Assembly: GCA_005883575.1 (NCBI GenBank)
Contig: VBFH01000024.1
Span: 1 to 64,000, forward strand
Length of the DNA stretch: 64,000 nucleotides
Origin: Chloroflexota bacterium
GTDB lineage: Bacteria; Chloroflexota; Dormibacteria; Dormibacterales; Dormibacteraceae
Reading direction: 5' to 3'
A program made the position numbers and the translations under genes. Positions 41,703-46,507 of the stretch are shown in pieces. Under the pieces are notes generated by a model. It worked only from the letters and a program-made list of their open reading frames with translations, was not told the DNA's origin and ran no database searches. Numbering within the stretch: the stretch's first letter is position 1; each line of letters begins with the position of its first letter.

Positions 41703-44546
41703 ATGTCCCGGCGATACCGTCCCTTCGATCCGTTCGAGCGCGGCGGTCCGTTCGACCCGAGCCGAGAGTTCCGCATGCCGCAGGTACCGCGCCGTTTCTG
41801 GGGCGGAGTCGCGCTTTTTGCCCTCGCAGTCCTGGTCTTCATCGCCGCCAGCCCGATCGTCGGCTTCGTCACCGAGGTCGAGTGGTACGACTCGCTCGGC
41901 CTCCGCGACGTCTACACGACACGGGTCGGACTCCAGTGGTCGCTGGGGCTCGGCAGCTTTGTGATCGCGCTCGCCTACCTGGCGGTCAACGTCCTGATCG
42001 CGCTCCGCGTGCGCTCCGGGGGAGCGCTCCGCGCAGTCGGCATCCGGCGCTCGGTGCTGCGGAGCACAGCCGGTTGGATCAGCCTCGGCGCCGCGGCAGT
42101 GATCGCCTTGATCCTGTCTGGCGGCGTGGCGAGCCAGTGGCAGTCTCTCGCCCTGTTCCTGCACTCCTCGCCGACGGGCACCACCGATCCGGTCCTGGGC
42201 CAGGACATCTCCTTTTATCTACTCACGCTTCCGTTCCTCCACGCGGTGGCCAACTGGTCAGTTGGACTCGACTTCATGGCGATCCTGTTGATCGCCGCCC
42301 TCTACTCGTGGCGCGGCGACAGCTTTGACTTCCGCCCGACGCCGCGCGCGCTCGCGCACGTCTCGGTCCTGATCGCGGCGTTCGCGGTCACGCTGGCGGC
42401 CTCGGCATGGCTCGGCCGGTACGACCTGCTGTTCGCGCACAACAGCAACGTCGTATGGGGCGCCGCGTACACCGACATCAACGCGAGGCTGCCGCTGTAC
42501 ACATTCCAGGCCGGCGTGGGCATCGTGCTCGCGGGCGGGCTGCTGGCGAATGCCTGGTTTCAGCGCCTGTGGGTGCCGGCGGCTGCGGCCGGGGCTTGGA
42601 TCCTGATCGCGATCGTCGGCCAGGTCTACCCGACGGTCGTGCAGAGCGTCTCGGTAACACCCAACGCGCAGTCCTACGAGCTTCCGTACATTCAGCGCGA
42701 GATCGCGGGCACGCGCGCCGCCTTCGGGCTGTCCGACGTCGCGGTCAACAATTTCAACGGCGACCAGCCACTCACAGCGCAGGACGTGCAGAACGACCAG
42801 GCCACGGTCAACAACGTGCGCCTCTGGGACTACGCACCGCTGAAGGACACCTATCAGCAGCAGCAGACGATCCGCACCTACTACACCTTCAACGACATCG
42901 ACATCGACAGGTACACGGTCAACGGGCAGTATCAGCAGCTCGAGATCAGCGCGCGCGAGGTCGACACCAACAGGCTGTCCGCCAGCGCGCAGAACTGGGT
43001 CAACCTCCATCTCCAGTACACGCATGGCTACGGAGCCGCCGCAAGCCCGGTCAACGCGGTCGTCGGCGAAGGCCTGCCCGATTACGTCGTAGGTGATGTT
43101 CCGCCGGCCGGCCCGCTCAAGATCACGCAGCCCGCGATCTACTATGGCGAGGTCCCGCGGGAGAACGACTATGCCGTGGCGCCGTCGCAGGTCCGCGAGT
43201 TCGACTTCCCGCAGGGCAGCCAGGACCAGTACACGAACTACACCGGCACCCATGGCGTGCCGATGAACAGCCTGAATCGCGCGCTCTGGTCGCTGAAGCT
43301 CGGCGACTTCAACTTGCTCGTCTCGCAGCAGGTGACGGACAAATCCCTGATGCTCTTCCGCCGCAACATCAAGGACCGCGCCTCCGAGCTCGCGCCCTTC
43401 CTGACCTTCGACAGCGATCCGTACCTGGTGGTCGTCGACGGGCGCCTGTACTGGATCCTCGACGCATACACCACCGCGTCCACCTACCCATACGCGCAGA
43501 CCGTGTCGGTCAGCAGCGACACCGACATCAACTACATCCGCAACTCGGTGAAGGTTGTGATCGACACCTACCAGGGCACGACGGACTTCTACGTGATCGA
43601 TCCGAAAGACCCCTTGATCCGGGCTTACGAGGCCACGTTCCCCTCACTCTTCAAATCGATCGACAAGATGCCGCAGGGTCTCCGGTCCCACCTGCGCATC
43701 CCCGAAGGCCTCTTCAGGGTGCAGGTTGGGATCTACGCCACCTACCATGTCACGGCGGACGCCGCGGGAGCGAGGGTGCTGTTCGCGCGGGAGGACGTAT
43801 GGGCGATCCCCACAGCACAGACCTCACCCAACAGCGCGGCGACGGCGCTGCAGCCGTACTACGTGCTGTTCCGCCTGCCCGGCCAGCAAAACCCCGAGTT
43901 CCTGTTGATCATGCCGTTCACCCCGCTCGGCAAGAACAACATGGTCTCGTGGCTGGCGGCTCGCAACGACGGTTCGCAGTACGGGCAGTACGTGTCCTAC
44001 GTGCTTCCCAAGGACAAGGTCATCTTCGGACCGCAGCAGGTCGCCAACCGCATCAATCAGAACACGACCATCTCCGCTGACTTCACACTTTTCAGCCAGG
44101 CCGGCTCGGAGGTACAGCAGGGCAACCTGCTGGTGGTGCCGATCGGCAACTCGTTCCTCTACTTCGAGCCGGTCTATCTCCGGGCCAAGGAGTCGTCGGC
44201 GCTGCCGGAGCTAAAGCGCGTCATCCTCGCGGACCAGACCGACGTGGCCTACGCCACCACCCTGGACGGCGCCATCAAGCAGCTGGTGGGTACGGCGACC
44301 GCGCCGCCGCTCCCGAACCAGCCTCCGACCGTGATCACGCCGGCGGTGGTCGCCCAGATCACCGACCTGGTGACCCAGGCAAACCTGCACTACAAGGCGG
44401 CATACGACGCTTTGAAGCGAGGTGACCTGACCACGTTCTCGACCGAGATGGGGCAGGTTGGCGTCATCCTCCAGCAGCTCCAGGCATTGACGGGGACATC
44501 GTCCATATCGCCGAGCCCTTCGCCAAAAGCCTCACCCAGTCCGTAG
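41703..44546 (+). CDS. UPF0182-family membrane protein
   Basis: 947 residues, usual length of UPF0182. About seven membrane helices in the first 320 residues (near 33-55, 80-102, 115-137, 165-185, 190-206, 218-238 and 265-310), then a large outer domain of about 590 residues with YTFNDIDIDRY and LPDYVVGDVPP, and a Pro/Ser tail PSPSPKASPSP. Function unknown. Very short predicted leader (TAAGCT, 9 nt before the ATG). Confidence 0.93.
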   Translation: MSRRYRPFDPFERGGPFDPSREFRMPQVPRRFWGGVALFALAVLVFIAASPIVGFVTEVEWYDSLGLRDVYTTRVGLQWSLGLGSFVIALAYLAVNVLIALRVRSGGALRAVGIRRSVLRSTAGWISLGAAAVIALILSGGVASQWQSLALFLHSSPTGTTDPVLGQDISFYLLTLPFLHAVANWSVGLDFMAILLIAALYSWRGDSFDFRPTPRALAHVSVLIAAFAVTLAASAWLGRYDLLFAHNSNVVWGAAYTDINARLPLYTFQAGVGIVLAGGLLANAWFQRLWVPAAAAGAWILIAIVGQVYPTVVQSVSVTPNAQSYELPYIQREIAGTRAAFGLSDVAVNNFNGDQPLTAQDVQNDQATVNNVRLWDYAPLKDTYQQQQTIRTYYTFNDIDIDRYTVNGQYQQLEISAREVDTNRLSASAQNWVNLHLQYTHGYGAAASPVNAVVGEGLPDYVVGDVPPAGPLKITQPAIYYGEVPRENDYAVAPSQVREFDFPQGSQDQYTNYTGTHGVPMNSLNRALWSLKLGDFNLLVSQQVTDKSLMLFRRNIKDRASELAPFLTFDSDPYLVVVDGRLYWILDAYTTASTYPYAQTVSVSSDTDINYIRNSVKVVIDTYQGTTDFYVIDPKDPLIRAYEATFPSLFKSIDKMPQGLRSHLRIPEGLFRVQVGIYATYHVTADAAGARVLFAREDVWAIPTAQTSPNSAATALQPYYVLFRLPGQQNPEFLLIMPFTPLGKNNMVSWLAARNDGSQYGQYVSYVLPKDKVIFGPQQVANRINQNTTISADFTLFSQAGSEVQQGNLLVVPIGNSFLYFEPVYLRAKESSALPELKRVILADQTDVAYATTLDGAIKQLVGTATAPPLPNQPPTVITPAVVAQITDLVTQANLHYKAAYDALKRGDLTTFSTEMGQVGVILQQLQALTGTSSISPSPSPKASPSP

Positions 44547-45158
44547 GGGGACGAAAAGCACCGGGAACAGCGAGCGATACGTCACCTCTGTCCCCTGCCG
44601 CATATAGACCCGGAGGTCCTGCGGCTCTTCCGGTGACATCGCCACGGGGATGACCATCCGGCCGCCGTCCGCCATCTGGTCGATCAGCGCCTGCGGGACT
44701 CCCCGTGCGGCGGCCGCGACCAGGATCACCCCGTAGGGAGCTCTTGCGGGCCAGCCCAGGCTGCCGTCGCCGACGGCGACCTCGACGTTGTCAAACCCAA
44801 GCCGCCGCAGCGTTTCAGAGGCGTGCTCGGCGAGGGCGGGCTCGCGCTCGACTGTGATGACGAGCCGGCAAAGCCGGCTGAGGACCGCGGCCGCGTAACC
44901 CGAGCCGGTGCCGACTTCGAGCGCAACGTCGTCTGGTTGCGGCCCGGCGGCCTGCGCCATGAGCGCAACCACGAGCGGCTGCGAGATGGTCTGACCACAT
45001 TCGATCGCAAGCGCCCGGTCCTCGTAGGCGTGCCGGCGCATCCGCGGCGCCAGGAACTCTTCGCGAGGCACAGATGCCATCGCCTGCAGCACGCGCTCAT
45101 CGGTCACGCCATGCGGTCGCAGCTGCTCGGCCACCATTCGCTGCGCCGGAGTGCTCAT
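44532..45158 (-). CDS. pcm: Protein-L-isoaspartate O-methyltransferase
   Basis: 208 residues. MVAEQLRPHGVTDERVLQAMASVPREEFLAP, GQTISQPLVVALM, SAM motif EVGTGSGYAAAVLS and VAVGDGSLGWP are diagnostic of PIMT. It methylates isoaspartyl residues to restart their repair. Overlaps the convergent UPF0182 gene by 15 bp and is divergent from the HPRT fusion. Confidence 0.94.
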   Translation of the reverse strand: MSTPAQRMVAEQLRPHGVTDERVLQAMASVPREEFLAPRMRRHAYEDRALAIECGQTISQPLVVALMAQAAGPQPDDVALEVGTGSGYAAAVLSRLCRLVITVEREPALAEHASETLRRLGFDNVEVAVGDGSLGWPARAPYGVILVAAAARGVPQALIDQMADGGRMVIPVAMSPEEPQDLRVYMRQGTEVTYRSLFPVLFVPLRTG

Positions 45159-45181: not shown

Positions 45182-45187
45182 TACAAT
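45182..45187 (+). promoter_or_regulatory. -10 box upstream of the nuclease/HPRT fusion
   Basis: TACAAT, close to consensus, ends 13 nt before the TTG at 45201. Transcription would begin near 45194, leaving about 7 nt of leader. This supports 45201 as start. Confidence 0.5.
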
Positions 45188-45200
45188 CAGCACCGTCTCA

Positions 45201-46196
45201 TTGGCGTCGTCGGTCCACTCCTCGATCCCGCAGAAATGGCGCCGCCCGGTCCGGCAGCGGTCGCGGCTGGTCAGACGAACGGGCCCCGCTCACTCGCGCG
45301 TCGAGTTCGCGCATCCGTCAGAGCAGGAGTTCGCGCGCTTCCTCGACTACTACCGCATCCGCTGGCAGTACGAGCCGGTGTCCTTCCCGATCGCCTGGGA
45401 GGGGACGCGTGTGGCCGAGATGTTCACACCCGACTTCTACCTGCCCGAGCACGACCTCTACATCGAGCTGACGACCATGAAGCAGTCGCTGGTCACGCCG
45501 AAGAACCGCAAGGTGCGCCTCGTCCGCGAGCTGTATCCGGAGCTCAACGTCCGGCTGCTCTATCGCAAGGATTACCAGCAGCTGCTCGCCAAGGCCGGAT
45601 ACGGCGCGCTGGAGGTGCAGCACCTGCGCAAGGAGGATATCGGCGAGATCCTCATCTCTCCGGTCGAGCTCGAGACGCGATTGCGCGCGCTGGGTCGCAA
45701 GATCTCGCGCGACTACCGCGGCCAGTCTCTCGTCCTGGTGGGCGTCCTCAAGGGCGTCACCTTCTTCCTGGCCGACCTCGCCCGCCAGATCAGAGTCCCA
45801 TTCGTCATCGACTACCTCGACCTGCACCGGTTCGCGGGCGCGCAGCCGCAGGACCGCGTGCGGATCGCCCGCGACATCGACTACCCGATCGAGGGGCGCC
45901 ACGTGCTGCTGGTCGAAGACATCATCAACACCGGGTTCACGATCGACTACGTGCTCGATGAGCTGCGGCGGCGACGGCCCGCCTCGCTCGAGGTCGTGAC
46001 TTTGCTCGACCGCCCGCTCCGCCGCATGGTCAAGGCGGCGGTGCGCTACGTGGGCTTCCAGATCCCCAACGACTACGTGGTCGGCTACGGCCTGGACTAC
46101 CGCGAGCTGTATCGCAACCTGCCGTTCATCTGCACTCTGCGCGCTAGCGTGTACGACATGCCGACGCCGCAGCCGGCCGCGGACCCCTTGGCCTGA
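45201..46196 (+). CDS. PD-(D/E)XK-nuclease-like domain fused to a hypoxanthine phosphoribosyltransferase
   Basis: About 331 residues from TTG 45201. Residues about 38-130 have the restriction-endonuclease-like pattern: YEPVSF, then FTPDFYL (Asp78), then LYIELTTMK (Glu89, Lys94) and VRLLYRKDY, as in PD-(D/E)XK/Vsr-type folds. Residues about 140-325 are an HPRT: LVGVLKG, DYLDLHRF, and the PRPP loop VLLVEDIINTG. HPRT makes IMP/GMP from bases and PRPP. I recall related fusions from other high-GC bacteria, but know of no function for the nuclease-like half. Confidence 0.85.
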   Translation: MASSVHSSIPQKWRRPVRQRSRLVRRTGPAHSRVEFAHPSEQEFARFLDYYRIRWQYEPVSFPIAWEGTRVAEMFTPDFYLPEHDLYIELTTMKQSLVTPKNRKVRLVRELYPELNVRLLYRKDYQQLLAKAGYGALEVQHLRKEDIGEILISPVELETRLRALGRKISRDYRGQSLVLVGVLKGVTFFLADLARQIRVPFVIDYLDLHRFAGAQPQDRVRIARDIDYPIEGRHVLLVEDIINTGFTIDYVLDELRRRRPASLEVVTLLDRPLRRMVKAAVRYVGFQIPNDYVVGYGLDYRELYRNLPFICTLRASVYDMPTPQPAADPLA

Positions 46197-46234: not shown

Positions 46235-46507
46235 ATGGCCGGCCAGGACTTCGCCGACCTGGTCAGCACGGGCCTGTTAAAGGACGTGGAAGAGATCGTG
46301 GTCGACGCCCACCGCACCGTCTATGCAAGGGCGGCCCAACCGTGGTCCCGGCCGGCTGCTTACCGGTGGCTGCGCTACGAGGATCCGGCCCCTGTCGCCC
46401 GCCTGGCCGAGGGTGTCAGGCGGCTGCGGAAAAAGGGTGCGAACTTCGACGCCGGGGCTGTGGACAAAGCCTGCGCAAAGGCGCGCAAGCGGGGCGTTTT
46501 GAATTAA
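46235..46507 (+). CDS. Small basic protein, unknown function
   Basis: 90 residues. Two helical segments (about 1-30 and 50-85) around YARAAQPWSRPAAYRWLRYEDP; the C-terminal half is Lys/Arg-rich (RRLRKKGAN, KACAKARKRG). Short and without a family I recognise, but the codon pattern matches the neighbours. Confidence 0.6.
   Translation: MAGQDFADLVSTGLLKDVEEIVVDAHRTVYARAAQPWSRPAAYRWLRYEDPAPVARLAEGVRRLRKKGANFDAGAVDKACAKARKRGVLN

Follow-up and report, generated by a model that had tools for sequence, protein, structure and literature searches.

Hypoxanthine phosphoribosyltransferase (HPRT) is a textbook housekeeping enzyme. Endonucleases of the T7 endonuclease I family cut four-way DNA junctions as domain-swapped dimers, with an active site in which Glu20, Asp55 and Glu65 act as metal ligands and Lys67 is the catalytic lysine. 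In bacterial HPRT, PRPP and (p)ppGpp share a single binding site, and the protein moves between dimer and tetramer according to the ligand; in the Bacillus enzyme (p)ppGpp is contacted by the side chains of Glu99 and Asp100 and by only the backbone of residues 103-107 (PMC6783271). On the nuclease side, the PD-(D/E)XK superfamily accepts variants such as COG4636, in which the lysine has relocated to the helix after strand beta3, at E+16 (PMC551604). The two components come together in a single open reading frame of the window analysed here (the whole stretch of 64,000 nucleotides), with both halves matched, as the first-pass annotation had proposed (Table 1). Each part is already known; the conserved nuclease-HPRT module is apparently undescribed, and no prior account of the pairing was found in the literature searched.

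Table 1 Features of the nuclease-HPRT locus, in window coordinates (residue counts refer to 109 Chloroflexota genomes with the domain)
Feature	Position	Strand	Remarks
Nuclease-HPRT fusion ORF	45201..46196	+	331 aa; starts with TTG, though the true start may lie a few codons away
Arg-rich N-terminal tail, aa 13-29, WRRPVRQRSRLVRRTGP	45237..45287	+	kept across Dormibacteria (alignment)
PD-(D/E)XK nuclease-like domain, aa 33-137	45297..45611	+	
Glu41	45321..45323	+	aligns with T7 endonuclease I Glu20; 109/109
Asp78, PD motif	45432..45434	+	aligns with T7 endonuclease I Asp55; 109/109
Glu89	45465..45467	+	aligns with T7 endonuclease I Glu65; 109/109
Thr91	45471..45473	+	at site of T7 endonuclease I catalytic Lys67; Thr in 109/109
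Lys94	45480..45482	+	catalytic Lys of the first-pass annotation; K 68, R 32, other 9 of 109
Lys101 to Lys104, helix alpha2	45501..45512	+	K101 109/109, K104 108/109
HPRT domain, aa 148-316	45642..46148	+	
PRPP loop (loop III) EDIINTGFT, aa 239-247	45915..45941	+	Asn243 (45927-45929) in place of general-base Asp
pcm (PCMT), divergent neighbour	44532..45158	-	PF01135 E=6e-58; lineage-specific synteny, outside the module

The same fusion recurs in about 30 Dormibacteria genomes and on the complete megaplasmid of Thermomicrobium roseum (WP_012643103.1, where the record annotates hpt alone), and is thus no assembly accident. A model of the full-length protein is confident inside the domains (pLDDT 84, pTM 0.67). 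A TACAAT just 5' of the TTG start (window 45182-45201) suggests that the transcript may be leaderless. A search of 350 Chloroflexota genomes gave a match to the nuclease-like domain in 120, clear in 109, although the genomes counted here and below are not phylogenetically independent. Among these 109, the domain is fused to HPRT in 48, lies directly upstream of hpt in 46 and is separate in 15, one of the latter having hpt one gene further on and so forming a 47th pair with a single gene between. The 46 adjacent pairs are co-directional, with a median of 32 nt from the nuclease stop to the HPRT-homologous region. The fusion is the Dormibacteria form of a two-part Chloroflexota module of nuclease and HPRT, encoded either as one protein or by adjacent co-directional genes, and the tree is compatible with, though not decisive for, a single fusion event. 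In two genomes with a stand-alone nuclease, a PRPP-synthetase-like gene lies nearby on the opposite strand (L149:7357-8775 and L150:5642-6598). Beyond the phylum, coverage consisted of one genome-contig scan with Dormibacteria-biased peptides as queries; a plasmid search returned Thermomicrobium and an intein, and a search of viral contigs returned one relative.

By sequence, the nuclease-like domain comes closest to T7 endonuclease I and the phage resolvases. The Pfam family of the former, PF05367 (Phage_endo_I), matches the N-terminal half with E=2e-5 at 22-25 bits, below the gathering threshold of 29.1, so that the domain falls outside the family by that measure. The sequence of the solved T7 endonuclease I was matched with E=2e-4 by the domain alone and E=8e-6 with a family profile, and PHROG searches returned an endonuclease (E=2e-9) and a Holliday junction resolvase (E=7e-7). 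The likeness to T7 endonuclease I and the phage resolvases and endonucleases (PHROG 945 and 9019) spans about 90 residues, and comprises the TPDF-LP stretch and the region of helix alpha2; the domain differs from these relatives in its linkage to HPRT and in scoring below the Pfam cut-off.

Since the full-length model, when compared with the PDB, returned HPRT rows only, we modelled the nuclease domain by itself. AlphaFold2 predicts an alpha-beta-beta-beta-alpha-beta core (pLDDT 87), whose order of secondary-structure elements fits that of the PD-(D/E)XK superfamily, and the nearest solved folds are mostly members of it: Bax1, I-Bth0305I, Vsr, VRR-Nuc, TnsA and Hjc, each a modest match with Z of about 5-7. 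The first-pass annotation had called for a structure prediction compared with Vsr and restriction enzymes, with an unrelated fold as grounds for refutation; the predicted fold is nuclease-like. Foldseek gave zero matches below E 0.001 with the same model, and T7 endonuclease I was absent among the structural matches listed, perhaps owing to its domain-swapped chain. Two further proteins of the same nuclease subfamily (L158:4576-5370 and L159:5038-5877) have no HPRT and are fused C-terminally to a Mu-transposase C-terminal-like domain, itself a weak match (PF22483, E 0.008 and 0.09). In the plasmid-borne dnaE of Miltoncostaea oceani (L222:1559-6523), an apparent intein carries an endonuclease domain that is a classic E-x-K relative of the nuclease.

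Conservation across the 109 genomes then allows us to ask which residues the active site is built from. Glu41, Glu58, Pro77, Asp78, Glu89, Thr91 and Lys101 do not vary at all, and three of the four residues of the T7 endonuclease I site are kept, the fourth, Lys67, being replaced by Thr. The PD motif and the acidic residue expected of the superfamily are thus in place, while the lysine two residues beyond the latter is missing, ExK having become ExT in every genome. The first-pass annotation had named Asp78, Glu89 and Lys94 as the PD-(D/E)XK residues; it was right about the two acidic residues, but 9 of the 109 genomes have neither K nor R at position 94 and 32 have R, a variability that disfavours Lys94 as the catalytic lysine. 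Loss of Asp, Glu and Lys in most homologues, which that annotation had named as a refutation, is not what the 109 sequences show, since both acidic residues are kept in all of them and a K or R stands at position 94 in 100. The classic E-x-K is retained in the phage relatives and in the intein relative, whereas the stand-alone relative from a viral contig (L160) shares E-I-T and the helix lysines with the Chloroflexota family. Helix alpha2, which carries Lys101 and Lys104, covers residues 95-111 in the full-length model. COG4636 (Uma2-type) offers a parallel, in that there too the ExK lysine is lost and a conserved lysine stands on the next helix, although at E+16 rather than at E+12 and E+15, in a different context, and with the migration in our case read from conservation only. 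From these patterns we infer a predicted active site of the form PD-ExT-K, with Lys101 or Lys104, and not Lys94, supplying the lysine.

The C-terminal half is recognisably an HPRT: it matches TIGR01203 with E=3e-51 and 173 bits against a curated cut-off of 150 bits, matches Pribosyltran with E=2e-21, and has 39-48% identity with bacterial HPRTs of solved structure. It shares loops I, III and IV with the bacterial enzyme; the fusion differs by its N-terminal nuclease domain, by Arg-Phe/Tyr for the Ser-Tyr of loop II and by an Asn for the general-base Asp, the PRPP motif EDIxD[TS]G reading EDIINTG. The initial description of an intact HPRT with its PRPP loop therefore holds for the family match and for the presence of the loop, but not for the general base, now Asn243. 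Every fused genome sampled from Dormibacteria and Thermomicrobia, 23 in number, has this Asn; Asp stands there in other lineages, and the canonical general base is kept in HPRTs encoded by adjacent genes or fused to GAF. The loops that bind PRPP are still kept in the Asn-type proteins of both classes, and in Dormibacteria Lys184-Gly185, Glu239-Asp240, Thr244-Gly245, Thr247, Asp299 and Arg305 are invariant. A loss of loop II in Dormibacteria was considered and rejected, its length being nearly normal there; it is shortened only in Thermomicrobiaceae. Since the HPRT of S. aureus has Glu at the general-base position, Asn243 is no proof of lost catalysis, and the substitution may merely slow the reaction. 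In one genome (G284, L195:1831-2985) the nuclease residues are intact and the HPRT has degenerated, lacking the KG and EDxxD (catalytic and PPi-binding) motifs. The second HPRT of the Thermomicrobia-like genome G172 (L228:696-2675) shares its chain with a PP-loop domain resembling TilS; like the nuclease-HPRT fusion it joins HPRT to a nucleic-acid enzyme, the partner there being a tRNA-lysidine-synthetase-like domain and no nuclease.

The two arrangements of the module differ markedly in what else the genome encodes. Another HPRT above the family cut-off is present in 42 of 44 fused genomes, against 11 of 45 genomes with adjacent genes (Fisher p ~1e-12, uncorrected for relatedness). The adjacent hpt is the sole HPRT in the other 34 of these 45, and since it also looks fully canonical, it must still perform salvage there. 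The genome of the window has one further HPRT gene beside adenosine deaminase and upp (uracil PRTase), and another beside cytosine deaminase. Selection has constrained the nuclease half more strongly than the HPRT half, with dN/dS of 0.047 and 0.079, respectively (55 pairs, one genus). These observations partly establish that the HPRT of Dormibacteria and Thermomicrobia has drifted from salvage enzyme towards binder or sensor, with other HPRT genes taking salvage over. Taken together, the linkage, the invariant residues, the constraint, the G284 protein and the extra HPRT copies suggest that the conserved output is the nuclease, with HPRT in the role of partner.

As an overall explanation we tentatively favour a resolvase-like nuclease with a moved lysine as the output, and HPRT as its ligand-binding regulator or sensor. 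Glu41, Asp78 and Glu89 would hold the metal in a variant and probably working active site, with the lysine shifted from strand beta3, at what is now Thr91, to helix alpha2, where Lys101 or Lys104 would substitute. HPRT would bind PRPP, a purine nucleotide or (p)ppGpp and thereby gate or position the nuclease, possibly through its known ligand-dependent switch between dimer and tetramer. The change from Asp to Asn spares the Glu and Asp side chains and the loop backbone that make the published ligand contacts (PMC6783271). Four long fusions of the Dehalococcoidia type were scanned, and the N-terminal GAF sensor domain present in three of them fits with control by a signal. A described counterpart exists in Card1 and Can2 (CARF-PD-(D/E)XK), which likewise join a small-molecule-binding domain to a PD-(D/E)XK nuclease and appear as weak fold matches (Z 4.7-5.7), but which have CARF in place of HPRT; our module is without a CRISPR link, and ligand control is in its case a proposal. 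The full version of this reading is more doubtful: a repurposed HPRT would sense PRPP, purine nucleotides or (p)ppGpp and thereby switch the moved-lysine, resolvase-type enzyme, making it a nuclease gated by metabolites. If true, it would tie nucleotide supply directly to DNA (or RNA) processing. The conserved, phylum-wide pairing implies that in Chloroflexota, among them the cultivable Thermomicrobium, the processing of nucleic acids is linked to purine or PRPP status in a way so far unrecognised. It presents an enzyme whose two activities can both be measured and tested, and corrects records annotated simply as hpt.

Because the canonical lysine is missing, the nuclease domain could also be dead, which makes a non-cutting domain the main rival to a ligand-gated nuclease. 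The domain would bind DNA or RNA and bring HPRT to it, and HPRT would there regulate purine genes or moonlight as an RNA-binding protein. There are precedents in PyrR, a phosphoribosyltransferase that binds RNA, and in TilS and HprT of Bacillus, which act on ftsH. The Thr found in all 109 genomes speaks for such a role, as does the Arg-rich tail of the Dormibacteria proteins, a possible nucleic-acid contact, and PD-(D/E)XK folds with just a binding role do exist (PMC551604). Binding would not, on the other hand, require three acidic metal ligands and Lys101 to stay invariant over very diverse partners and architectures, and we regard this explanation as unlikely.

It is less probable again that HPRT is the central component and that the nuclease-like domain merely governs how a salvage enzyme oligomerises or how stable it is. 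The adjacent-gene partner, usually a sole and canonical HPRT, would suit this, but the nuclease half is the more constrained of the two and its active-site residues are invariant; they persist in G284, where it is the HPRT half that degenerates.

The first-pass annotation had put forward, as one possibility beside a fold that only binds, a domain that cleaves damaged or deaminated nucleic acid, with HPRT salvaging the released purine, and this we consider quite improbable. The two parts are indeed physically coupled, and in Dormibacteria the gene for the hypoxanthine-excising MPG is found some 2 kb from the fusion, as mutM adjoins the fusion in Thermomicrobiaceae; yet these are lineage-specific neighbours, and linkage to a glycosylase or nucleosidase was found nowhere outside single lineages. 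A nuclease yields nucleotides, moreover, whereas HPRT requires the free base, the lineage of the window has lost the general-base Asp, fused HPRTs nearly always share their genome with another HPRT, and the HPRT of G284 is degenerate. The pcm gene is adjacent and divergent, as had been pointed out, but a functional link to it is not supported, 47 of 48 loci with pcm being from Dormibacteria, where it belongs to a general syntenic block. We rejected pcm, MPG, UPF0182 and thiolase alike as functional partners, since they are conserved beside the fusion in Dormibacteria only and so say nothing on function.

A phage-defence role, with HPRT detecting a phage-caused nucleotide disturbance and releasing the nuclease, is suggested by the phage resolvases among the relatives and by a sensor-nuclease layout resembling that of Can2 and Card1, but is likewise improbable given that PADLOC gave no clear match (marginal ones, E>0.001, fall at the PD motif only), that the module behaves as core genome, present throughout whole families, and that its neighbours are of housekeeping type. 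Downstream of the fusion, a 90-residue open reading frame (window 46235-46507) with no Pfam or NCBIfam match is kept in 45 Dormibacteria loci.
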